In this document: in pieces, positions 11,169 to 22,723 of the stretch
Numbering within the stretch: the first letter of the stretch is position 1
Layout: each line of letters begins with the position of its first letter
IMG/VR virus record: IMGVR_UViG_3300047319_001004
Location: 1 to 26,846 of that record
From: a virus
Direction: 5' to 3' (one strand)
DNA: 26,846 nt
Made by a program: the position numbers and the translations under genes
The notes under the pieces: generated by a model
Seen by the model: the letters and a program-made list of their open reading frames with translations, nothing else
Told to the model about the DNA's origin: nothing
The model's database searches: none

Positions 11169-11447
11169 ATGCTGAGCGCGCTTATCGGAAATGTCTTCAC
11201 GCTGAAACATACGTGCGTCAATGCTGCGGGCGCACCCACCGATGCAACGACGGTGATATTCATCGTCAAACCGCCGATTGGTGCGAATGTGACGGGCTCC
11301 TTCACGCGGCATCCTGGCGTTGGTCTGTATGAGTACGATTTCTCCGCAACGGTGACAGGTACGCACAAGGCGGTTGTGCTGACGACAAGCCCCGCGAGCG
11401 AGGCCAGCACAGAGTTCTACGTCCATGCGAGTCATGTGACGCCGTGA
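11169..11447 (+). CDS. Small Ig-like/beta-sandwich protein
   Basis: This 92-residue protein has strand-rich phrases (VFTLKHTCVNAAGAPTDA, TVIFIVKPP, GLYEYDFSATVTGTHKAVVLT) that fit an immunoglobulin-like beta-sandwich. Similar small proteins sit beside fibre genes in other phages, as baseplate- or fibre-associated Ig-like domains. AGGAG at 11158-11162, overlapping the end of the LamG gene, supports ATG 11169. It is the last rightward gene of the adhesin-like island. Function is unknown; assembly or capping of the LamG fibre is possible. Confidence 0.7.
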   Translation: MLSALIGNVFTLKHTCVNAAGAPTDATTVIFIVKPPIGANVTGSFTRHPGVGLYEYDFSATVTGTHKAVVLTTSPASEASTEFYVHASHVTP

Positions 11448-11462
11448 AGCGCGCGAGATCGT

Positions 11463-11879
11463 CTAGTCCTCGTACTGTTCTTCCCGCATCGCGAGATATT
11501 CACCGAGGGCGGGCATGGCGGCGATGAGTTCATCCCAGAAGGCGCGATTGTCGCAGTCTTTCACATGGTCCAGCGCCACGTTCTGCCATGCTGTTGGGCC
11601 GAAAAACGCGAGGATGTCTCGGATTGTGTCGTCAGTCGCTGAGCGAGGAATGAGTTGGACGGCGGCGATCAGCAACCCGCACGCTGCACACTCCGCCTCT
11701 TGCTCCCACGCTCCCAGCCGCTGGCCGAAACCGAATCGCTGTCGTTCCTCCTCACGCAAGCGGTTACACAGCCAACCCGTGCGTGCATCAGGCGGGAACA
11801 TGATGTCGGCCAGTATCTGTGGTGCGCGCCAAACGGTCTCGTCGATGTCCGGCAATATCGAGCGCGGTGTATGGTTCAT
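11463..11879 (-). CDS. Leftward accessory gene, unknown function
   Basis: The protein has 138 residues and reads naturally (tryptophans, mixed helices, AFWDELIAAMPALGEYLAM). It is transcribed against its neighbours. GGGGAGGAA sits a few bases upstream of the start codon and is strong, supporting a real gene. There is one CxxC pair (ECAACG), too little for a zinc ribbon alone. I do not recognise the family. A -10-like TATACT lies 30 bp upstream on the same strand. Its isolated, convergent position suggests a moron acquired by the phage. Confidence 0.7.
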   Translation of the reverse strand: MNHTPRSILPDIDETVWRAPQILADIMFPPDARTGWLCNRLREEERQRFGFGQRLGAWEQEAECAACGLLIAAVQLIPRSATDDTIRDILAFFGPTAWQNVALDHVKDCDNRAFWDELIAAMPALGEYLAMREEQYED

Positions 11880-13576: not shown

Positions 13577-13600
13577 GTGCATGCGAAGAGGAGTTTCCCC

Positions 13601-14944
13601 GTGGGAAAAACATTGCGCGAACTGACAACGGATATCAACACGGCGATGAAGACCGTGGACGACTTCTGGAAAGGCGTGCCCGCTGGCGAGGAGATGAGCG
13701 TTCCGCGTGAGAAGCGCGAGGAGATCAAGACGCTCAACCTTCAGATCGAGGAGTGGCAGCACGAAGCCGCCGACCTCAAAGAGGTCACGGACATGCGCGG
13801 CGCGAATGACGCCGTGAAAGCCTGGATCAATAGTTCCGCGGGCAACATGCGCCACGGCAATCCTGTTAGCGGTGATGTGGTCTCCGCCGATGCCGCCAAC
13901 GCGCAGTTCCGTCCGCAGATGAGCATCGGTGATTCCTTCACGACGAACGACACGTTCAAGTCATGGCACGGGATCGTCTCACCAGGAGGCCGCGAGCCAT
14001 CCAAAGACACGAAGGTACAGTCGCCGCCAATCCCGATGCCCGACCTCACCATCAATGCCCTGAAGACGCTCGTCACGAGCAACACGACTGGCGCGGGCGT
14101 TTACACCAACACCACAGGCGGCGCGCTCGTGCAGCCGCAGTACTTGCCCACGGTCGCGTTGCCGTTCCGTCCGCTGAAACTGCGTGACGTGGTGACGGTG
14201 ATTCAGGCGAGCAGCCCCGTCATCAACTATCCGCAGGTCACGGGCTATACGAATAGCGCGGTGGAAGTCGCGGAAGCAACCACCACCTCAAACGGCACGA
14301 AGCCAGAATCCGCGCTCGCCCTGGCGCTCGGCACGTCGGTCGCCGCGACCATCGCGCATTTCATGCCGATCACACGGCAAGCCTTGAGCGATGCGCCGCA
14401 GTTGCGCGACCTCATCAATCAGTTCCTCATGAACGGCCTCGCCCAGCGCCTCGAAGACGAGATGATTAGCGGCGATGCCACGGGTGCCAATATGCGCGGT
14501 ATCCACAACATCTCCGGTATCTCCACGCAGGCATTCGTCACCGATAACCTGACGACGCTGCGCAAGAGCATCACGAAGGCGCGCATCACGCCCATCTTCG
14601 TGGAGCCGAATGCGTATCTCATCAGCCCGCAGGATTCTGAGGGATTGGACCTCGCCACCGACAACGAGGCGCGGTTCTACTTCGGTGGCCCAGGCATGTC
14701 GGACAGCCAGCGGTTGTGGGGCAAGCCCGTCATCGTCAGTCAGGCCGTGCCGAGCGGTCGCGCCTATACCGGCGATTTCTCCACCCTCGTCCTCGCTGAC
14801 CTGATGGAAGCACAGATGTTCCTCTTCGATCAGCATTCTGACTGGGCGGTGAAGAACATCTTGGCCCTATTGGCTGAACTCAGAGCACATTTCTTCTCGC
14901 TCCGTCCTGCGGCGATAATCGAAATATCGCTAGGCGCGTGGTGA
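13601..14944 (+). CDS. Major capsid protein, HK97 fold
   Basis: This 447-residue protein would form the icosahedral shell. The first 65 or so residues are helical and charged (TLRELTTDINTAMKTVDDF, EIKTLNLQIEEWQHEAADLKEV). They resemble the scaffold-like delta domain that the prohead protease removes in HK97. The rest matches HK97-type capsids: YTNTTGGALVQPQYLP, the P-loop LAHFMPITRQALSD-like segment (IAHFMPITRQALSDAP), LINQFLMNGLAQRLEDEMI, and the closing LLAELRAHFFSLRPAAIIEISL. I chose GTG 13601 because GAAGAGGAG (13585-13593) lies seven bases upstream; a GTG at 13577 overlaps the terminator. An antisense HNH gene ends 10 bp after the stop. Confidence 0.94.
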   Translation: MGKTLRELTTDINTAMKTVDDFWKGVPAGEEMSVPREKREEIKTLNLQIEEWQHEAADLKEVTDMRGANDAVKAWINSSAGNMRHGNPVSGDVVSADAANAQFRPQMSIGDSFTTNDTFKSWHGIVSPGGREPSKDTKVQSPPIPMPDLTINALKTLVTSNTTGAGVYTNTTGGALVQPQYLPTVALPFRPLKLRDVVTVIQASSPVINYPQVTGYTNSAVEVAEATTTSNGTKPESALALALGTSVAATIAHFMPITRQALSDAPQLRDLINQFLMNGLAQRLEDEMISGDATGANMRGIHNISGISTQAFVTDNLTTLRKSITKARITPIFVEPNAYLISPQDSEGLDLATDNEARFYFGGPGMSDSQRLWGKPVIVSQAVPSGRAYTGDFSTLVLADLMEAQMFLFDQHSDWAVKNILALLAELRAHFFSLRPAAIIEISLGAW

Positions 14945-14954
14945 TAGCGTAGGG

Positions 14955-15731
14955 CTAATCAATATGCGCCCATGACTTGCGAAGGATGACGTTACTGACT
15001 TGGGTTTGCCGTATGCCGTATTCAGCGGCGAGTGCGGCCTGCGAGATGCCGCCTGCGGCGTACCGCGTGCGAATCTCACAAACGATCTGCTCAGTCAGTT
15101 TCGCATTCTCGCTCGTCTCGCCACGTCGCAAGCGTTCGGGATACAGTCGCGCACCATTGGCATCACCATGCGCCATCCGTTCGGGGTGAAGATGGCTCGG
15201 ATGATTCTCTCCACGCAGGATACTCTCTGGGTGAGTGTATGATCCGTGCCGTTCGCCACGTGCCATTCGTTCGGGATGAAGGTGGGGGCCGCTTTGATCG
15301 CCACGAGGCGTGCGTTCGGGATGCGTTGCATGGCCGTTTCGTTCGCCACGAGCGGCGCGCTCAGGGTGGAGTCGTAGGCCGCTGATTGCGCGTCCCTTGA
15401 TTGCCTTATCGCGCTGGTTGTCGGCCTCCGTGCCTATCCAGAGATGGCCGCGCCGAGGATGCGTGATGCCGTCTACTTCGTAGGTACCTTCATCGTCATT
15501 GCGGACACAGAGCGGGTTATCGCAGGTATGGCAGACGAGCATTTCATCAGGGATCGTTTCGCCAGCCATCTGGTAGGCGATGCGGTGAGAACGATGGTTC
15601 GCGCCGCTAAACCAGAAGCGACCATAGCGACGAGCAACGCTACCCGTCCACATCCAGCATCCCGTTTCGGGATCGACGGTGACATTGCGCATGAATCGTT
15701 CGCGGTCAGACGCAGTAAACTGAGGATGCAT
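14955..15731 (-). CDS. HNH endonuclease with six 15-residue repeats and C-terminal HTH
   Basis: This is a free-standing HNH-type nuclease of 258 residues on the minus strand, likely a homing endonuclease that nicks or cuts DNA. The nuclease core spans about residues 25-112, with CWMWTG, RSHRIAYQMAGETIPDEMLVCHTCDNPLCV, and HLWIGTEADN after a short insertion (79-95) common in this subgroup. Residues 121-210 are six exact 15-residue repeats ((L/T)HPERxxRGExxGxx). Residues 209-258 form a helix-turn-helix (AKLTEQIVCEIRTRYAAGGISQAALAAEYGI, closing SWAHID). GGAGGT (15737-15742) five bases upstream fixes the start at 15731. Free-standing, intron-less and convergent with the capsid gene, it is one of three related genes here. 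Confidence 0.9.
   Translation of the reverse strand: MHPQFTASDRERFMRNVTVDPETGCWMWTGSVARRYGRFWFSGANHRSHRIAYQMAGETIPDEMLVCHTCDNPLCVRNDDEGTYEVDGITHPRRGHLWIGTEADNQRDKAIKGRAISGLRLHPERAARGERNGHATHPERTPRGDQSGPHLHPERMARGERHGSYTHPESILRGENHPSHLHPERMAHGDANGARLYPERLRRGETSENAKLTEQIVCEIRTRYAAGGISQAALAAEYGIRQTQVSNVILRKSWAHID
15102..15371 (-). repeat. Six tandem 45-nt repeats inside the HNH gene
   Basis: HPER-type motifs start at residues 122, 137, 152, 167, 182 and 197 of the HNH protein, exactly 15 residues apart. Units vary at the DNA level but keep HPER (or HPES, YPER) and RG(E/D). This is coding repetition, not a CRISPR array. Confidence 0.92.
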
Positions 15732-15756
15732 TGACGACCTCCAATCGTTGATGCAC

Positions 15757-15787
15757 GAGACGCCGGTGTTCACTGCACCAGCGTCTC
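15757..15787. repeat. Hairpin-forming inverted repeat upstream of the HNH gene
   Basis: GAGACGC (15757-15763) pairs with GCGTCTC (15781-15787), and inner GGTG pairs with CACC after one mismatch, leaving a 7-nt loop. On the minus strand it would fall at the 5' end of the HNH transcript, just after the -10 element. The flanking pyrimidines are too few for a confident terminator. Confidence 0.6.
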
Positions 15788-15790
15788 TCT

Positions 15791-15820
15791 ATTATAGCAG
15801 ATACCGCGTCACAATGCCGA
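15791..15820 (-). promoter_or_regulatory. Candidate sigma70-like promoter for the HNH gene at 14955-15731
   Basis: The minus strand carries a perfect TATAAT (15791-15796) with TCGGCA (15815-15820, four of six) 18 bp upstream. Transcription would start about 50 bp before the HNH start codon. Confidence 0.5.
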
Positions 15821-15837
15821 AACAAGGAGCAACCATC

Positions 15838-16410
15838 ATGGCAAACACAGCGTCGGGGCGCAGTCGCGGTAGGACTGCGCGGGCCATCGAAACCTATCAG
15901 CCGGGAAACGTCGCGCTCGGCACGGCAACCGCCGTGCATGCGGCGGTGACGGATACGGGCGCGCAGCAAGTCATCACGACCGCCATCACCAGTCCTGATG
16001 TACCGCGCACGATCATCGCCACACCGGGCGGCACCACAGGGAATGTAACAGCTGTTAGTTGCATTGTGGCGGGTACGGACATCTCTGGCGCGGTACTGAC
16101 GGAGACATTGCCCGCTTTCGCGGCAGGCGCGGCAACGGCGAGGACGAGCGTGAACGCCTTTGCGACGGTGACGAGCATCACACAGCCCGCCATCGGCACG
16201 GCGGTAACGGTCTCGTACGGCACGACCGCACAACTCGGCATGCCGCAGCGCATGTCGCGCAACACCGTCCTCGCCGCCTATCTCGCTGGCGTCAAGGAGG
16301 CGACCCCACCCACGGTGACGACCCACGCCACGGATCGCTCCAAGACGCTGGCGCAACTGAATAGTGCGCTCAACGGCACTGCGGTCGTGATAGATTTTTA
16401 CGAGTCATGA
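15838..16410 (+). CDS. Capsid decoration-like or minor head protein
   Basis: This 190-residue protein directly follows the capsid gene apart from the inserted HNH cassette, where many phages encode a decoration or cement protein. It is rich in threonine, alanine and valine strands (TDTGAQQVITTAITSPDVPRTI, VSCIVAGTDISGAVLTETLPAF) and has the closing phrase LGMPQRMSRNTVLAAYLAG. I recall this pattern from unnamed head-module proteins of other phages. AAGGAG (about 15824-15829) before ATG 15838 sets the start. The role is inferred from position and composition, not from a recognised cement fold. Confidence 0.65.
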   Translation: MANTASGRSRGRTARAIETYQPGNVALGTATAVHAAVTDTGAQQVITTAITSPDVPRTIIATPGGTTGNVTAVSCIVAGTDISGAVLTETLPAFAAGAATARTSVNAFATVTSITQPAIGTAVTVSYGTTAQLGMPQRMSRNTVLAAYLAGVKEATPPTVTTHATDRSKTLAQLNSALNGTAVVIDFYES

Positions 16411-16796
16411 GTAGATTCGGTGACAAGTGGCGTGTGGAGTACCCGGAGAACACCGGGCCACGGCACGCGCCCGTGTCCCTTGAACCATCGGAACGAACGG
16501 AGGCACCCACGGTGGCAGACCCGAAAATGGTCCACGTTGACATGTACGGTAATGAGGTCTCAGAGAACGACCCGGCATCGCAGTCGAAGCACTTGCCGGC
16601 TGAGTTGAAGGCGCTCCGCAAGGGCGGGTTCTTCCCGAAGCAGGGAGACGATCCCGAAACCGATGCCGCTGCCGAGGCGGCGGAGGCGGAATCGGAAGGC
16701 ACGCCCGTCATGAACAGCGGTATACGCGCGCAGAACGCCGACGAAGACGCCGACGAGGAACCGCAGGCAAAGGGCACGCGAGGCACGAAGAAGTAA
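16407..16796 (+). CDS. Acidic, probably disordered head-module protein
   Basis: The protein has 129 residues. The first 75 or so hold some tryptophan/tyrosine and prolines (FGDKWRVEYPENTGP, VHVDMYGNEVSEND), while the rest is glutamate/alanine/aspartate-rich and ends in a basic cluster (TRGTKK). Its start overlaps the stop of the decoration-like gene (ATGA at 16407-16410), so the two are coupled. No domain is recognised. Such acidic proteins beside capsid genes can be scaffold remnants or head-tail joining factors, but nothing here decides it. Confidence 0.65.
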   Translation: MSRFGDKWRVEYPENTGPRHAPVSLEPSERTEAPTVADPKMVHVDMYGNEVSENDPASQSKHLPAELKALRKGGFFPKQGDDPETDAAAEAAEAESEGTPVMNSGIRAQNADEDADEEPQAKGTRGTKK

Positions 16797-16815
16797 CGGC
16801 AACGGAAGGGAGGGC

Positions 16816-17382
16816 GTGGTGTTGAATCTGGCTGATGCCCATGACGCAGTAGTGGATCTCGCAGAACCCACGCTCGACCCTGCCTTGACCGATGCGGAGA
16901 TTGACAGCGCCATCGTCCGTACCGCCGTGGCGTCGATCTGGTTGCCCGCCACGGCGTATACCGTGGGGCAGTTCGTTGTGCCGCCCGTGCCGATGGGGAG
17001 GCTGTTTATCTGCGTCCTCGCGGGTACGAGTGACACGACCGAACCGGCATGGCTGATTGCACCCGGCTACACAGGTCCGGTGAATCCCTATGCGGGCTAC
17101 TGGTGGGGGACGGGCACGCTGCCCTTCATTGAGAGCGTGCAGAACACGCCGTGGTACTGGGGACTTGCGGACGGCACGTGTGCGTGGCGTGACTATGGAG
17201 CGTTCGCGGGCGAGATTTACGATGTGCGCGCGGCCGCTTCGGAAGCGTGGCGGATGAAGGCTCGCAAGGCGGCAAATCGTTTTGATGTGAATATTCAGGG
17301 CGGCCCGAATGCGAGGCGGAGCCAGATATATGCATACTGCCTCCAGATGGCTCGGTCTCTACAACCCGTGCGGATTGTTTAG
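16816..17382 (+). CDS. Head-tail connector (HK97 gp6-like adaptor) with an inserted beta module
   Basis: The protein has 188 residues. The N-terminal part (about 1-40, LDPALTDAEIDSAIVRTAVASIW) and C-terminal part (about 140-188, VRAAASEAWRMKARKAANRFDV, QIYAYCLQMARSL) are the helices expected of an adaptor ring protein that sits under the portal. Between them (about 43-135) lies a segment built on TAYTVGQFVVP, GRLFICVLAGTSDTTEPAW, as in small surface or carbohydrate-binding-like modules of phage proteins. Starts GTG 16816, GTG 16819 and TTG 16822 are all possible after GGAAGGGAGGG. Its stop codon overlaps that of the antisense HNH gene by two bases. Confidence 0.72.
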   Translation: MVLNLADAHDAVVDLAEPTLDPALTDAEIDSAIVRTAVASIWLPATAYTVGQFVVPPVPMGRLFICVLAGTSDTTEPAWLIAPGYTGPVNPYAGYWWGTGTLPFIESVQNTPWYWGLADGTCAWRDYGAFAGEIYDVRAAASEAWRMKARKAANRFDVNIQGGPNARRSQIYAYCLQMARSLQPVRIV

Positions 17383-17945
17383 TCGATGTGTGACCAGTTG
17401 CGACGTGTGCAGATATGAGACACCGCCGATTCCCCGATTCCATATATCTTCGCTAGTTCGGCAAGCGTTGCGCCACTGATCTTAGCGAGGCGGATGGCAC
17501 GAACATCATCGGCGGTGACTTTGCTCTTGAATCGCTCACGATCTCGCGCTTCGTGCATATTCTGCGTCTGTGTTCCAAGGTGGAGGTGCGCAGGATTGAC
17601 GCAGATCTTATTGTCGCAGTCATGCAGCACTTGCTCGTCTTTTGGGATAGGGCCGTTCGCCATCTCCCATGAGACACAATGAGCACCCCGCATCCGCCCG
17701 CTGGCATAGATTGCGCCGTAGCCAACATTTCCGATGGTTCCTGTCCAAATCCAGCAGGGACCAAGTTCGGGGCGATGCAAAGGAGTTGGACCATCCTTGT
17801 CTACGCGAACCCAAAAGCGCGTGGGCAAGTTGTGCCGACTGAAGATGCCCGCGCATGAACGGGAACAGAAACGCTCCTGATCTTTTGTCGTTAGCGGCTT
17901 ATCGCATTGTTCGCAAACGCGGGGGGTGGTAGCCTGCTGAGGCAT
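17379..17945 (-). CDS. HNH endonuclease with N-terminal zinc ribbon and C-terminal HTH
   Basis: This 188-residue nuclease is on the minus strand. Residues 11-31 form a four-cysteine zinc ribbon (CEQC and CSRSC). The HNH core spans about 63-130 (CWIWTGTIGNVGYG, HDCDNKICVNPAHLHLGTQTQN), retaining the HNH histidines and asparagines. Residues 140-188 are an HTH ending NWSHID, the same ending as the HNH gene at 14955. AAGGAG eight bases before ATG 17945 (on its strand) is its ribosome-binding site. The HNH stop overlaps the connector stop, which suggests precise insertion at the gene end. Probably a homing endonuclease; its target site is unknown. Confidence 0.9.
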   Translation of the reverse strand: MPQQATTPRVCEQCDKPLTTKDQERFCSRSCAGIFSRHNLPTRFWVRVDKDGPTPLHRPELGPCWIWTGTIGNVGYGAIYASGRMRGAHCVSWEMANGPIPKDEQVLHDCDNKICVNPAHLHLGTQTQNMHEARDRERFKSKVTADDVRAIRLAKISGATLAELAKIYGIGESAVSHICTRRNWSHID

Positions 17946-18019
17946 CGAAGATTACTCCTTCGGTGTGTCGCCCCAACGCAGTTCACACCTGCCGAGGGGC
18001 ATTGCTAATTCACCCTTTC

Positions 18020-18048
18020 ATTCTACCAGTTTAGCGCATTGGAATCAA
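18020..18048 (-). promoter_or_regulatory. Candidate sigma70-like promoter for the HNH gene at 17379-17945
   Basis: On the minus strand TTGATT (18043-18048) and TAGAAT (18020-18025) are separated by 17 bp, and the start codon is 75 bp downstream. Confidence 0.5.
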
Positions 18049-18069
18049 GGAAATGGAGGGCTGGCATAG

Positions 18070-18435
18070 ATGGGTGGATTGACTACCGCTGACATGGCAG
18101 AACTGGCCACCCTTGACGCCCTTTTCATGCCGTCTACCTGTCAAATCGTCTCCACCGCTCCCGGCACCCAGAACCCTGACGGCAGTAGTGAACCGGGCAC
18201 GACGACCACCACGACCGTCGCATGCAGATTCGCGGATGGCATCCAGGCAGCGGAAGTGCTCGCGGCGATGCGGCTGACGGTGGAAGCCAACGCCATCCTC
18301 TCCGTGCCGCTCGGCACGGCGGCGACAGAAGCGGACACGGTGACATACGCGGGTGATAGTTGGGGCATTGTTGGGAGCAATCTCGGCGCGTCCTACGCCA
18401 CGTCATTGGTGCTCGCGATTCGATTGGTGAGGTGA
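18070..18435 (+). CDS. Head-closure / head-tail joining protein
   Basis: This 121-residue protein has the shape of small head-closure proteins (HK97 gp7 / SPP1 gp16-like group): an N-terminal helix, then PSTCQIVSTAPGTQNPDGS, a TTTTTTVACRFADG strand, and AILSVPLGTAATEADTVTY. It lies between the adaptor and the gp10-like gene, its usual place. It would form a ring closing the portal channel. GGAGGG at 18055-18060 supports ATG 18070; the upstream 124 bp hold the HNH promoter. Confidence 0.75.
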   Translation: MGGLTTADMAELATLDALFMPSTCQIVSTAPGTQNPDGSSEPGTTTTTTVACRFADGIQAAEVLAAMRLTVEANAILSVPLGTAATEADTVTYAGDSWGIVGSNLGASYATSLVLAIRLVR

Positions 18436-18438
18436 GCG

Positions 18439-18780
18439 ATGGCAGCATCACTCGACATCACCACCACCGTTGATACCGCGCAACTCGACGCCATGATCGC
18501 CCGCGTTGAGCACCTCGACGCCATCGTTGCGAAGTACGCCGCGCTCATCGAGGCTCGCGCCAAACAGTTGGTGCCCGTCCTCACGGGTGCGCTCCGTGAC
18601 TCGATCACGACGCATCTCGAAGGGCTCGCGGCGGAGATTGTCGCAGGCGAGGGGTTGGATTATGCTGCCATCATCGAATACGGTGGCTATAATCGCCCCG
18701 CGAAGCCATACATCAGGCCCGCCACCGAAGAGTACGTTGCCGCGTTCGTTGCCGAGATTTGGGCCGCGATGGGAGGCTGA
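18439..18780 (+). CDS. HK97 gp10-like tail completion protein
   Basis: The protein has 113 residues with the hallmark layout of this family: a helical N-terminal part, then VPVLTGALRDSITTHLEG, AAEIVAGEGLDYAAIIEYG and KPYIRPATEEYVAAF. These proteins help join or complete the tail at the head-tail interface. It starts three bases after the head-closure gene and its stop overlaps the start of the next gene, so the three are a tight translational unit. GAGGTGAG just before ATG 18439 is the ribosome-binding site. Confidence 0.85.
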   Translation: MAASLDITTTVDTAQLDAMIARVEHLDAIVAKYAALIEARAKQLVPVLTGALRDSITTHLEGLAAEIVAGEGLDYAAIIEYGGYNRPAKPYIRPATEEYVAAFVAEIWAAMGG

Positions 18781-19247
18781 TGATGCCGGTGCCAACGACC
18801 GTTGCTCGCGGAATCGAGACCCATCCCGTTCTCATCGCCATGCGGACCGCCCTCATCGCCAACACGACCATCGCGACCATGCTCGCGGTGCCAGCAACAA
18901 GCCCAACGCAGTATCGCATCTATCCTGGCGCGGATCTTGGGGGCGGTGCATTCCCGTTCATTGACTACCTCACCGTTTCCGATGTGACCGAGGGATCGTT
19001 TTCCCACGCCGGATTCAACGACCTCATCCAGTTCACGGCGCATGATAAATCAAGCAGCACGGCCAATGTCGTGACGCTCGCCACCGCAATCCTCGATGCG
19101 CTGATGAATACGCCGTGGAGTATTTCCGGGTGGGCACTCATCGGGAAGGGACGTGAGGGCGCACGATTGCTGCCGCCGGAACTCGTGAACGGTATCGCGT
19201 TTCAGAACTATCCCGTCACGATCCGGGTAGAGGCAATCAAGACGTAA
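18780..19247 (+). CDS. Tail terminator protein (DUF3168-like)
   Basis: This protein of about 155 residues matches the tail-terminator group in layout: an N-terminal helix (HPVLIAMRTALIANTTIATML), YRIYPGADLGGGAFPFIDYLTVSD, a histidine-containing strand (FSHAGFNDLIQFTAHDKS), and a helix followed by SGWALIGKGREG. Such proteins form the ring that caps the tail tube and fits the head. ATG 18780 overlaps the previous stop; ATG 18783 has better spacing from GGGAGG (18771-18776). Either start changes only one residue. Confidence 0.75.
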   Translation: MMPVPTTVARGIETHPVLIAMRTALIANTTIATMLAVPATSPTQYRIYPGADLGGGAFPFIDYLTVSDVTEGSFSHAGFNDLIQFTAHDKSSSTANVVTLATAILDALMNTPWSISGWALIGKGREGARLLPPELVNGIAFQNYPVTIRVEAIKT

Positions 19248-19258
19248 GGGGGGAAAAG

Positions 19259-19642
19259 ATGCTGCAAGCAATCTTCGGACGAAACAAGCGGCGCAAGGCG
19301 GAGACCGACGGACGAAACAAGCGGCGCACGGTGGAGATCGACGCCTTCTGGGACGGGGTGCGTGACAACTTCCACAGGGACGAGATGCGGAACTACCCTG
19401 TGATGTTTCGTAGGAATCATCGCGAACTCGCTGAAATGATCGCGGACCCAGAGAATGCGCCCGATCTGCCATTCTTGATCGCCTTGCATGACAGCCACGC
19501 GGTGTTGCTTGCGGAGATGGAATCGCAACTGCCGTGGACCTCAATCGACCAATGTGACGCCTTCGCATCGCGCTCCGAAGCCGAGACACGCGCGATTCTC
19601 GAACGGTTTCGCCCTGAAGAGGCAAAGGCGTTCCATTACTGA
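19259..19642 (+). CDS. Unknown charged protein with an 11-residue N-terminal duplication
   Basis: The protein has 127 residues and is helical and charged, and I do not recognise it. An 11-residue unit is repeated near the start (GRNKRRKAETD and GRNKRRTVEID), encoded by two 33-bp copies with 18 identical bases each (19277-19294 and 19310-19327). A GGGGGGAAAAG ribosome-binding site precedes ATG 19259. It lies between tail terminator and tail tube genes, where phages often keep small accessory genes. Confidence 0.65.
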   Translation: MLQAIFGRNKRRKAETDGRNKRRTVEIDAFWDGVRDNFHRDEMRNYPVMFRRNHRELAEMIADPENAPDLPFLIALHDSHAVLLAEMESQLPWTSIDQCDAFASRSEAETRAILERFRPEEAKAFHY

Positions 19643-19644
19643 TA

Positions 19645-19667
19645 ATGACCACACCATATCGGTTCGG
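19645..19667. repeat. Copy 1 of a 23-bp direct repeat encoding MTTPYRFG
   Basis: It reads ATGACCACACCATATCGGTT plus CGG and differs at two positions from 19926-19948. It begins just after the stop of the 19259-19642 gene. A ten-codon frame MTTPYRFGQE closes at TAG 19675-19677. Confidence 0.75.
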
Positions 19668-19686
19668 ACAAGAGTAGGGGGAAGCG

Positions 19687-19929
19687 ATGTCCCACCCATA
19701 TGCAGGGCTCAAATATTTCATTGACGCACCGGAGCTTCACAGAATGATCGATGGGAATCGCTCACCGCCAGAGATCGTCGGTTGGCTCATGACGAATCTG
19801 TCGGAAGATGCTCTACGCACTCTGGCCATGTTGTGGCGGCCACAGTGGCCCCGACCACTAACGCGACCGTTCTATTATCGCCCCCTCGCCTATTGGCGGG
19901 AGATTCCGTTTCACTCGTATCACAGATGA
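19687..19929 (+). CDS. Unknown small protein
   Basis: The protein has 80 residues and no recognised domain. The N-terminal half is helical (APELHRMIDGNRSPPEIVGWLM, SEDALRTLAMLW). The C-terminal part is rich in Arg, Pro, Tyr and Trp. AGGGGGAAG gives a good ribosome-binding site for ATG 19687, and aromatic content is normal for a real protein. The stop overlaps an ATG that begins the second MTPPYRFG repeat. Confidence 0.6.
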   Translation: MSHPYAGLKYFIDAPELHRMIDGNRSPPEIVGWLMTNLSEDALRTLAMLWRPQWPRPLTRPFYYRPLAYWREIPFHSYHR

Positions 19930-19948
19930 CCCCACCTTATCGGTTCGG
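19926..19948. repeat. Copy 2 of the 23-bp direct repeat (MTPPYRFG)
   Basis: It reads ATGACCCCACCTTATCGGTT plus CGG, with 21 of 23 bases identical to 19645-19667. Its ATG overlaps the stop of the preceding gene. Confidence 0.75.
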
Positions 19949-19994
19949 CTGGGTATCGCATGGGCGGTGCCTGTTACATGTACAGGAGGAACAG

Positions 19995-20156
19995 ATGCCA
20001 GAGGACACGAAGAAGGACGAGGCGAAAGCACCGACCGTCGATACCAAGGGCATGACGAAAGAGGAAGCGGTAGCCGCGAAAGAAGAGGCTCGCGCCGAGG
20101 CACAGCGGCAGTTGGCGCGGCGACTGGAGTACGGGCCGATCCGCGACCCAGAGTAG
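19995..20156 (+). CDS. Small charged helical protein, unknown
   Basis: The protein has 53 residues, rich in Glu, Lys, Ala and Arg (TKEEAVAAKEEARAEAQRQLARRLEYG), likely one long helix or coiled coil. AGGAGG at 19984-19989 five bases before ATG 19995 makes this the best start. The frame is open back to an ATG at 19926 that would add 23 residues beginning MTPPYRFG, but that start has no ribosome-binding site. Function is unknown. Confidence 0.6.
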   Translation: MPEDTKKDEAKAPTVDTKGMTKEEAVAAKEEARAEAQRQLARRLEYGPIRDPE

Positions 20157-20168
20157 GCGAGGCGCACG

Positions 20169-20696
20169 ATGGATGATGACGAATGGGCGCAGATTGTACG
20201 GGAACGGCGCATCTTCGTTGCCATGCAGGAGGCGAACGATCCCGCACTCAGCACGCCCGAAGTGCGGGCGGCGCATATTGATCTGCAAGAGCGGACCGCC
20301 GACTGGGTACGCAGGCGTGATGGTCTGCCAATACCCTCGCGCCCATTCAGCCGTCGTCCACCCCTCGCACCACAACCGAGTAGCATGCAGGTAGTCTGGG
20401 AGGACAAACCCGAACCGCCACGACCACCACGACCTCTGCTCCTCGATCCCGATACCCTTGAACGGGCGCGGTGTGCGGCAGACGGATACAGCGCATCAGA
20501 GAAGGCGCAGTACGCGCTGCGCTGTAAAAAGCTGCCGCAGGATGCCGTCTCGGTGATTCTGCGACGGCGCAGGCAAATCGAGGAGGATAATGACCTCCTG
20601 TGCGCCATCGCGGGCATCCGTGAGCCAGACATAGTCGCCGCGCTCGGTGCCGTGATTCCGTGGAAGATTCCGTCTGAGGAGGTGAGCCAGATGTGA
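20169..20696 (+). CDS. Unknown protein with a proline-rich middle
   Basis: The protein has 175 residues. The N-terminal (about 1-55) and C-terminal (about 90-175) parts are helical and charged. A proline-rich segment lies between (RPFSRRPPLAPQPS, EDKPEPPRPPRP). The two halves could be separate domains on a linker. GAGGCG lies about six bases before ATG 20169. It is followed within three bases by the stop of an antisense HNH gene. I do not recognise the family. Confidence 0.65.
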   Translation: MDDDEWAQIVRERRIFVAMQEANDPALSTPEVRAAHIDLQERTADWVRRRDGLPIPSRPFSRRPPLAPQPSSMQVVWEDKPEPPRPPRPLLLDPDTLERARCAADGYSASEKAQYALRCKKLPQDAVSVILRRRRQIEEDNDLLCAIAGIREPDIVAALGAVIPWKIPSEEVSQM

Positions 20697-20699
20697 ACG

Positions 20700-21464
20700 C
20701 TAGATATGTGTCCACGTTTTACGCTGAACCATCAGGCAGACCGAGGGGGCACTAATGCCATACTCGCGGCCAAGTGCCTTCATGGAGATGCCACCAGCCG
20801 CGTACCGTGCGCGTATGGCGATCACATCAGCATCGGTGATCTTGGCATGGCCGCACGCTTCACCTTGACGTGAGGCGAAGACACGCGGCTTGGCGGGCGG
20901 TGCGTCGGGGTCTTCGACATGCGCCCATCGCTTTCCACTGACGATCTGACCGATGACGGTTTGCTCGGTGCCCCACTCCTTCGCCAATATGAGTTGCGAG
21001 ATGTCGCCCTCAGCGTAACGGCGGCGGATGGCGATGATGTCTGCCTCGGTGAACTTGGCGGCCGGATTCTCTTCGCCGCGCTTCCCGATGATCGGAGATG
21101 CGCCGGGATTGCGATGCGTCCAGTGATCGTCGCCAAATGAATGCGCGACATAGACGGCGCGACCTTTGGCTATCTTATCGTCGGAGTTGTCTTTATCAGT
21201 GCCGAGGAAGAGATGTAGCGGGTTGACGCAGGGCGGCGTATCGCATGTGTGGCAGACCTTCATTCCATCAGGGATGGGGTCATAGACAGCCTCATAAACG
21301 ATGCGATGCGCTTTCCGAACCTGCCCGCCAAACCATGCAAAGGTGCCATAGCCCCAATCATCGGTTGAGGCTAGCCAGAGCCAGCAACCATCCGGGCCTT
21401 CGACTTCAACCTTTGCCCAGAAGCGGTTATTTCCATACGGGATCATGATACTATCGGGGAGCAT
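20700..21464 (-). CDS. HNH endonuclease with duplicated C-terminal HTH domains
   Basis: This 254-residue nuclease is on the minus strand. The HNH core spans about residues 14-103: FWAKVEVEGPDGCWLW, AHRIVYEAVYDPIPDGMKVCHTCDTPPCVNPLHLFLGT. Two homologous DNA-binding modules follow at about 136-183 (AKFTEADIIAIRRRYAEGDIS through KRWAHV) and 207-254 (AKITDADVIAIRARYAAGGIS through KTWTHI). The same module occurs once in the HNH at 14955. TAGGAGG five bases upstream sets the start at 21464. Its stop lies three bases from that of the rightward gene it faces. Likely a homing endonuclease; the duplicated module may lengthen target recognition. Confidence 0.9.
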   Translation of the reverse strand: MLPDSIMIPYGNNRFWAKVEVEGPDGCWLWLASTDDWGYGTFAWFGGQVRKAHRIVYEAVYDPIPDGMKVCHTCDTPPCVNPLHLFLGTDKDNSDDKIAKGRAVYVAHSFGDDHWTHRNPGASPIIGKRGEENPAAKFTEADIIAIRRRYAEGDISQLILAKEWGTEQTVIGQIVSGKRWAHVEDPDAPPAKPRVFASRQGEACGHAKITDADVIAIRARYAAGGISMKALGREYGISAPSVCLMVQRKTWTHI

Positions 21465-21493
21465 CGCAGCCTCCTAACGGCTTCGGTGTCATG

Positions 21494-21525
21494 CCCCCTA
21501 CTGTGTCGAGCAGTGAGGGGGTTTT
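21494..21525 (+). terminator. Candidate intrinsic terminator between the connector and tail blocks
   Basis: CCCCCT (21494-21499) plus ACTG (21500-21503) pair with CAGT (21511-21514) and AGGGGG (21516-21521), with one bulged G and a 7-nt loop, followed by TTTT. It would stop rightward transcription before the tail tube gene. The short U-tract makes it moderate. Confidence 0.5.
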
Positions 21526-21535
21526 CGCTATCCCG

Positions 21536-21564
21536 ATTATCGCAGGATTCCCTTGTCAGTGCAA
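21536..21564 (-). promoter_or_regulatory. Candidate promoter for the HNH gene at 20700-21464
   Basis: On the minus strand GATAAT (21536-21541) has TTGCAC (21559-21564) 17 bp upstream. The -10 matches five of six bases and the -35 three of six. Confidence 0.35.
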
Positions 21565-21793: not shown

Positions 21794-22480
21794 ATGGCAG
21801 AACTATTGCCGATCACAGGAACAGATGGGGCATTGGTACTTTTGAACGGCGCGCCAACACCAGTAACGGCACAGGCGGCGACCAACATCCTGGCGATCCC
21901 CGGCGGCACGCTGGCCTACCCGGCGCAACAGGTGTTTCAGACCGCGATACGCACGCACAAGATTTGGGACCCGCGTGTGACGCCCATCGTCTATAACGCC
22001 GCGACACCGCTGCCCAGCACGCAATATTTCGTGGACTGGGGCAACGGCCTGGTGGTGTTCTACACGCCGCTGACCGGCACACCGACAATCACCTTCGATT
22101 TCACGTACATTCCGACCGCGACGACGACCGATGTCGTGGCCCTGCCGCACACGTCAAACATCAACATGACGATGACAGGCAACAACATCCCGCTCGACGA
22201 GTACCGCACCCTCATCATCCCCGAAGCACGCGGCAAGATGCAGGGGACGTTCCAGTTCGACTGCTGGGCGTCCAGCACTTCGGTCGATCTCCTCGGTCTG
22301 ATGAAGTTGCGGAACTACTTCATCTTCGGCGCGTACGACAGCATCCAGGCGAACAGGCTCAATATTCTCTACGCAGACCTTACTGGTATCCCGAAAAATA
22401 TCCCCGTTAATGGCGGCATCGGCGGCACGATCACGGCGACCCTGAAGCAGTTGCCTTCCTTTGTGAATGAGGCGCTTTGA
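21794..22480 (+). CDS. Probable major tail tube protein
   Basis: This 228-residue protein is beta-rich and sits immediately before the tail assembly chaperones and tape measure, the standard place of the tail tube protein of siphoviruses. Strand phrases include QYFVDWGNGLVVFYTPLTGTP, TITFDFTYIPTATTTDV and RGKMQGTFQFDCWASS; the NGGIGGTITATLKQ ending is also tube-like. GGAG nine bases before ATG 21794 is the ribosome-binding site. It would stack as hexameric rings to make the tail tube. The assignment rests on order and fold impression; I cannot match a named family. Confidence 0.7.
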   Translation: MAELLPITGTDGALVLLNGAPTPVTAQAATNILAIPGGTLAYPAQQVFQTAIRTHKIWDPRVTPIVYNAATPLPSTQYFVDWGNGLVVFYTPLTGTPTITFDFTYIPTATTTDVVALPHTSNINMTMTGNNIPLDEYRTLIIPEARGKMQGTFQFDCWASSTSVDLLGLMKLRNYFIFGAYDSIQANRLNILYADLTGIPKNIPVNGGIGGTITATLKQLPSFVNEAL

Positions 22481-22495
22481 TCGCGTCTCGCAACG

Positions 22496-22723
22496 CTACG
22501 GCGACGGTGATGCATCCGCTATCCGTCGTCGGGCGCGCAACTTTGCGGCTGAGACGCGGAACGTTTCGCGTCTGACGAGCGCGCGGCACGGTTCGCAGTA
22601 ATGCGGCTGATCGGTGCGAAATCGTTTGCGGCGCACCATGGGTGTACCGCAGCGGTCACAGGTTGCGAGTTGCCCCCGTTCCCGCAGGATCGTCGCCATC
22701 TGCTCGGCAAGTGCATCGTCCAT
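22496..22723 (-). CDS. Small zinc-ribbon protein on the minus strand
   Basis: The protein has 75 residues with two CxxC pairs (Cys22/Cys25 in TCDRCG and Cys43/Cys46 in YCEPC), a classic four-cysteine zinc ribbon. A basic helical tail follows (RRETFRVSAAKLRARRR), suggesting nucleic-acid binding. I chose the ATG at 22723 because GGGAGG lies five bases upstream on the same strand, even though the frame stays open farther back. Five bases further upstream begins a promoter-like region. It ends 16 bp from the tail tube stop, convergent. A small regulator or HNH-like relic is possible, but no nuclease core is present. Confidence 0.65.
   Translation of the reverse strand: MDDALAEQMATILRERGQLATCDRCGTPMVRRKRFRTDQPHYCEPCRALVRRETFRVSAAKLRARRRIADASPSP

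Follow-up and report, generated by a model that had tools for sequence, protein, structure and literature searches.

Why do three related nuclease genes lie antisense among the structural genes of a phage, each ending almost at the stop codon of the gene that it faces? This question is raised by the virus record IMGVR_UViG_3300047319_001004 of IMG/VR, whose 26,846 bases are the window analysed here. The terminase, portal, capsid, connector and tail genes of the window point rightward; the only leftward genes are three HNH endonuclease genes (HNH1, HNH2 and HNH3) and two small open reading frames (ORFs). Presence and absence of the HNH cassettes among relatives, promoter-like sites, covariation in a leader, tight junctions and an orientation bias were found computationally. 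These data suggest that the cassettes are probably autonomous homing-endonuclease elements that are tolerated at gene borders, each with its own promoter and structured leader, and that they lie antisense because they bear promoters. New here is the module of promoter and structured leader on every cassette; the leader may be an RNA element not yet described.

An earlier note on this DNA had described three leftward HNH ORFs of one family between rightward head-tail genes, and ORFs and domain matches bear out their ends, strand and kinship. HNH1 (14955..15731, minus strand) matched PHROG 1872 (E=2e-19) and Pfam HNH_3 below cut-off, while HNH2 (17379..17945, minus strand; E=6.9e-13) and HNH3 (20700..21464, minus strand; E=5.7e-9) matched HNH_3 above cut-off; PHROG HNH families were matched by all three. 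Each has the HNH motif of a free-standing HNH homing endonuclease, HNH1 through PHROG 1872. An alignment also confirmed a shared C-terminal helix-turn-helix (HTH) ending W-x-H-(I/V), and HNH3 has two C-terminal HTH repeats. For HNH1 the start is most likely 15731 and not 15773, judging from the leader position and the N-terminus (ATGCATCCTCAGTTTACT): the codon at 15731 begins a leader-adjacent ATGC and yields MHPQFT, in line with MPQQAT (HNH2), MLPDSI (HNH3) and the N-termini MHDQST and MPNQYT in the relatives L009 and L008. With the start thus corrected, the spacers to the next rightward gene measure ~106-109 bp (HNH1), 124 bp (HNH2) and 329 bp (HNH3), all above the 100 bp claimed earlier. 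The stops lie as close to those of the facing genes as had been described: HNH1 ends 10 bp after (14944/14955), HNH2 in a 4-bp overlap, TTAG (17379-17382), and HNH3 3 bp after (20696/20700).

The annotated phage collection was without a near relative of the window, and megablast of the region against phage records gave no match. Relatives were present in IMG/VR, namely L007-L011 (capsid 72-79% amino acid identity), L040 and L049. Relatives lacking a cassette, which the earlier note had proposed to seek, were found for HNH1 and HNH2. Site 1, the border between the capsid gene and the next gene, is without HNH1 in five of them (L007, L008, L009, L010 and L040), and site 2 is without HNH2 in four (L007, L008, L009 and L040), where the flanking genes overlap or nearly touch (TGATG). 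HNH1 and HNH2 are separate ORFs that are present or absent at a given locus. The sequence GCTAATC is retained in L007 and L009 where HNH1 ends, and could be native or a deletion scar. Antisense HNH genes also occur elsewhere in these relatives. In L009 one lies a border further on, with a shared CTAG stop. In L008 one lies inside the tail gene that comes next, where 43 resident codons are followed by the HNH gene (shared TTAG stop) and then by a second 5' copy of the tail gene. The two 5' copies (L008 5370-6424) share 68% identity; with L009 the left fragment shares 74% and the right copy 61%. The right copy, which outruns the end of the contig, may be a hybrid gene. Empty sites 1 and 2, together with the 4-bp shared stops in L009 and L008, uphold the suggestion of repeated insertion at or near stop codons.

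Other sequences were seen in the relatives. At site 1, L007 (3048-3244) has an apparent C-terminal remnant of a sense HNH gene (TLANLRACCLRCNSGKRDRW), which suggests nuclease turnover at one border. At this site L008 (2492-2660) and L010 (11101-11288) have an insert of ~110 bp with a palindrome (GGGACGGTTC..GAACCGTCCC) and a T-arm like that of a transfer RNA (tRNA); ARAGORN detected no tRNA there, in the window or in its relatives. A 19-nt DNA pattern from the L008/L009 spacer matched those two contigs only. L040 (1505-2653) carries an HNH gene in sense orientation that belongs to another type (zinc ribbon, HNH/HNH_5); it bears the same kind of leader and runs in frame into the next structural gene.

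A sigma-70-like site is found on the HNH strand upstream of all five HNH genes of the window's phage group (position weight matrix against shuffles, p<=0.05 each). In the window these sites are, on the minus strand, TCGGCA-N18-TATAAT with TG before the -10 for HNH1 (15791..15820; p=0.02), TTGATT-N17-TAGAAT for HNH2 (18020..18048; p=0.01) and TTGCAC-N17-GATAAT for HNH3 (21536..21564; p=0.05). A separate consensus scan recovered the sites of HNH1 and HNH2, and that of HNH3 was below its threshold. Across the wider family, the promoter score was higher for antisense than for sense HNH genes (Mann-Whitney p=0.004).

A common leader plan first became visible when the sequences upstream of antisense HNH genes were compared. 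It consists of a GC-rich hairpin (hairpin 1), RUGRCACC, a second hairpin (hairpin 2) around the Shine-Dalgarno sequence, which lies in or beside the loop, and then AUGC-N6-AGNNUACC. The HNH1 leader (15732..15790, minus strand; fold z=-3.6) has a 12-bp hairpin, CGUGCAUC and a second hairpin with GGAGG. That of HNH2 (17946..18019, minus strand) has a GCCCC..GGGGC hairpin, ACACC and a CGAAG..CTTCG hairpin around the Shine-Dalgarno sequence; both were assigned by anatomy. We built two covariance models, R1 (hairpin 1) from 9 sequences and R2 (both hairpins) from 15. The HNH3 leader (21465..21535, minus strand), which belongs to both training sets, scored 43.8 bits with R1 and 60.4 bits with R2, the latter match (21461-21522) reaching into the start codon. 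In 42 of 56 viral leaders a TATAAT-like box precedes hairpin 1 by 14-30 nt, compared with a mean of 9 after shuffling.

Two-sided changes occur at 13 of the 17 leader pairs, and covariation was 0.497, compared with 0.130 in shuffled alignments and <=0.15 for slid partners. A second set of 35 distinct leaders gave 0.470 versus 0.098 when shuffled; in that set, partial independence is confined to the outer stem and hairpin 2, because these leaders were found by a DNA pattern that fixed part of hairpin 1, were aligned to the model and include some training members. An early DNA pattern for the leader had proved too narrow. Outside its training set, R1 matched nearly always directly upstream of HNH ORFs and once before a GIY-YIG-like ORF. 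Within the window family, R2 reported the leaders of HNH3 (the training member), of L009 (E=0.019) and of the sense HNH gene of L040 (E=0.08). The leader model matched nothing at E<1 in other phage contigs totalling 522 kb, and Rfam 15 covariance models matched no leader with E up to 1 or 2. We lean slightly towards reading the leader as a cis-acting structured RNA of a class not yet described, which travels with mobile-element genes and in which a bulged GC-rich hairpin with a loop of 6-7 nt begins the plan given above; it precedes HNH, GIY-YIG and endonuclease VII genes of phages and resembles a hairpin before transposase, integrase and other genes of bacteria.

Two further ideas about the leader were given up. 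Pairing of the -10 region (GGTATAAT) with a coding motif (ATTATACC) is perfect in L105, L118 and L008 and not in others, and inspection revealed no covariation. A CsrA-type site in hairpin 2 was set aside, the leader being present in phyla where CsrA would not be expected.

The genes behind the leader are of several kinds. Among 55 viral leader-bearing ORFs, 30 matched HNH_3 and 8 HNH (overlapping sets), two GIY-YIG, one endonuclease VII and one integrase. The dinucleotide TA stands at the same ORF position in 44 of 56 leader genes, though the proteins belong to several families. In bacteria (Actinobacteria, Planctomycetes and others), pattern matches precede an IS1595 transposase, an integrase, an HNH gene and genes of no assigned function; these were selected with a fixed stem and are weaker evidence. 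R2 detected about seven leader copies in a single phage contig, the 60-kb record of L140. The hairpin was also seen ahead of the genes of a family that is repeated in one Planctomycetota genome (L208, L211, L213 and L232) and at contig ends in several genomes (L205, L216, L220, L221, L229, L234 and L235), as expected of multi-copy elements.

Orientation and junctions were examined in 80 further IMG/VR loci, with a simple gene caller of our own that overlooks genes with unusual codon usage, including HNH1 and HNH2. In this sample 43 HNH genes were sense and 29 fully antisense; the antisense placement is not universal. The leader was carried by 12 of 35 antisense and 5 of 43 sense HNH genes (p=0.026). 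On viral contigs, 25 leader genes formed a divergent pair with the gene behind, mostly 75-125 bp away, and a convergent pair with the gene ahead; 11 were sense with respect to both neighbours. Random orientation among relatives had been named beforehand as a finding that would speak against the earlier proposal. It applies in part, given that some HNH genes of the wider family and of L040 are sense. At their 3' side, 23 of 35 convergent HNH genes end <=12 nt from the opposing stop. With a stricter gene caller and a larger locus set, such junctions were found in 12/17 convergent HNH genes versus 11/51 other convergent pairs (p=6.5e-4). The shared 4-nt stop by itself was not significantly enriched (5/17 versus 7/51, p=0.16), and stop sharing was rejected as an insertion signature for this reason.

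From these patterns we infer a scheme for mobility, cleavage, timing and the role of the leader. Each cassette would comprise an HNH nuclease with C-terminal HTH domains, transcribed from a host-type promoter of its own and translated behind the structured 5' leader. Homing would copy the cassette into unoccupied phage genomes during co-infection, and the surviving copies would be those at borders of genes in the essential head-tail operon. An antisense cassette would have its own expression, separate from that of the late operon, and would not drive downstream structural genes at the wrong time. The orientation bias would follow, because late genes would be driven early by a promoter-bearing sense cassette and not by an antisense one; sense copies without the leader could ride on the operon. 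At its outer end the cassette would carry or abut the ribosome-binding site from which the next rightward gene is translated, and the 3' end would meet the stop of the facing gene. The leader probably controls or insulates nuclease translation, with insulation, timing or autoregulation as possible roles. The earlier proposal that convergent placement limits harm is plausible in so far as promoter-like sites are found on the minus strand and leader-bearing genes are mostly antisense.

The same promoter-like sites could serve a different end, if leftward transcripts reached into the capsid and connector genes at their 3' ends and tuned their messages. The consensus scan also reported minus-strand terminators, none of them in the capsid gene beyond an HNH stop, and antisense read-through into the capsid 3' end is therefore possible. 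However, close relatives do without the cassettes, since five of them have site 1 without HNH1 and four have site 2 without HNH2; the antisense HNH genes there face other genes, and no conserved antisense product beyond the HNH ORF was seen. We consider such regulators very improbable, and antisense control of capsid and connector messages, which the earlier note had offered as a function, is unsupported. The cassettes might also be plain survivors, inserted anywhere and in either orientation, kept where they hit a border and trimmed at their 3' junctions by compaction, so that orientation would be meaningless. The 43 sense and 29 antisense cases of the wider family fit this idea, as do the 4-nt shared stops of other convergent pairs (7/51). 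Yet leader-bearing genes lean antisense (25 versus 11 on viral contigs; 12/35 versus 5/43 in the sampled loci, p=0.026), and HNH junctions are tighter than those of other convergent pairs, which makes mere survivorship unlikely. It is similarly doubtful that the leader acts as DNA instead of RNA, as an operator or recombination site bound by the nuclease. I-TevI does bind an operator over its own promoter (PMC2988022), the leader adjoins the promoter, and a conserved AGNNTACC-like motif extends into the reading frame, with TA in the same place in 44/56 genes. Against this, the stems change freely in sequence without loss of pairing, and it is on the second stem that the Shine-Dalgarno sequence is displayed. 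Moreover, the nucleases behind the leader are unrelated, and a single DNA-binding specificity common to them is unlikely.

Several points weigh against autonomous, promoter-bearing cassettes as the explanation. An exact unoccupied counterpart of site 3, occupied by HNH3, was not found among the relatives, and homing by the window's HNH family is assumed from kinship. The promoter matrix is a hand-written sigma-70-like one and may not fit the phage's host. R2 failed to report the leaders of HNH1 (at E<=10), HNH2 and L008, whose internal loop differs and which we assigned by eye, and fold z-scores were unremarkable for HNH2 (-1.2), HNH3 (-1.6) and L009 (-0.7). Finally, some leader-bearing genes are sense (11 viral ones and that of L040), and the leader can thus do without antisense placement.

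If the cassettes are such autonomous elements, they explain how selfish nucleases can reside in essential structural operons: they bring their own promoter and leader and probably the ribosome-binding site of the next gene, and they lie antisense, so that the promoter spares the structural genes. If the leader is common to unrelated nucleases, regulatory RNA modules would spread between mobile elements independently of the protein. A covariance model of the leader would also be a route to new mobile genes.

The genes bordering the three sites are all on the plus strand. HNH1 faces the major capsid protein gene (HK97 type; 13577..14944; PF05065, E=3.6e-25; PHROG 10), whose C-terminus is as in L007-L010 and L040. 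Downstream of site 1 lies a structural gene conserved in relatives according to tblastn (15838..16410, gene caller; start 15838 or 15841). HNH2 faces a head gene (16816..17382; PHROG 20658, E=2.4e-6), whose stop TAG overlaps the HNH2 stop (TTAG) and whose C-terminus, ARSLQPVRIV, reads ARSLQPVRVV in L040. Beyond site 2 follows a connector-like gene (18070..18435; family and relative matches), the start of which overlaps the preceding gene's stop in relatives. The gene facing HNH3 (20169..20696, from the ORF list) had no homologue in the relatives searched, and that downstream of site 3 (21794..22480) is 87% identical in L049 and, by its position in the gene order, the probable tail tube gene. 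One small antisense ORF (22496-22714, minus strand; ~73-75 amino acids, zinc-ribbon-like) comes at its 3' end to within 15 bp of the stop of the latter gene, on the far side of that stop; it has a minus-strand promoter-like TAGACA-N18-TATACT (22775-22746), and the hairpin leader is absent. The other (11463-11879, minus strand; 138 amino acids, without family match) is separated by 15 bp from the stop at 11447 and has TGCTATACT directly upstream of its start.

The cassettes resemble their closest known precedents in part. With the free-standing phage HNH endonucleases of HNH_3 and PHROG 1872, 59 and 826 they share the nuclease domain, the C-terminal HTH and insertion at gene borders; they differ in having a promoter-and-leader module and in preferring antisense convergent placement, neither of which we found described. 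The start-associated sequence (SAS) and extended SAS (ESAS) of Cluster K mycobacteriophages and EF Microbacterium phages are likewise placed just before start codons, as a conserved 13-nt GGGATAGGAGCCC or GGGAAAGGACCCC with upstream repeats, and a small hairpin of the SAS could be like hairpin 2. However, sequence and spacing differ, and SAS genes are diverse non-structural ones. The leaders have no GGGATAGGAGCCC-like 13-mer 3-7 nt before the start, and hairpin 2 is similar in shape with an unconserved sequence. Nor do the leaders have the 17-bp inverted repeats without RNA covariation of the ESAS, for which its authors found little support for RNA pairing; hairpin 1 covaries strongly. Stable hairpins also lie upstream of seg43(25) of Aeromonas phage 25, where the ribosome-binding site is left unsequestered, and of I-TevI, segB and Aeh1 mobE. 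Those are single cases in T4-like phages, whereas the leader described here has two hairpins, covaries and is common to many phages and nuclease families. The arrangement in L008 recalls fungal mitochondrial mobile ORFs (Allomyces, Glomus atp6, cox2 and others), in which an endonuclease ORF in a gene is accompanied by a foreign copy of one gene end (PMC3630166); a gene end is duplicated in both, the C-terminal one in fungi and the 5' one around an antisense HNH gene in L008. In T4 the only homing gene in antisense orientation is segD, which encodes a free-standing GIY-YIG homing endonuclease and lies between genes 23 and 24; no promoter was found for it (PMC2988022). Like the HNH1 cassette it lies antisense beside the major capsid gene, but it is reported without a gene-specific promoter, whereas the cassettes of the window combine promoter-like sites and a structured leader with an HNH nuclease.

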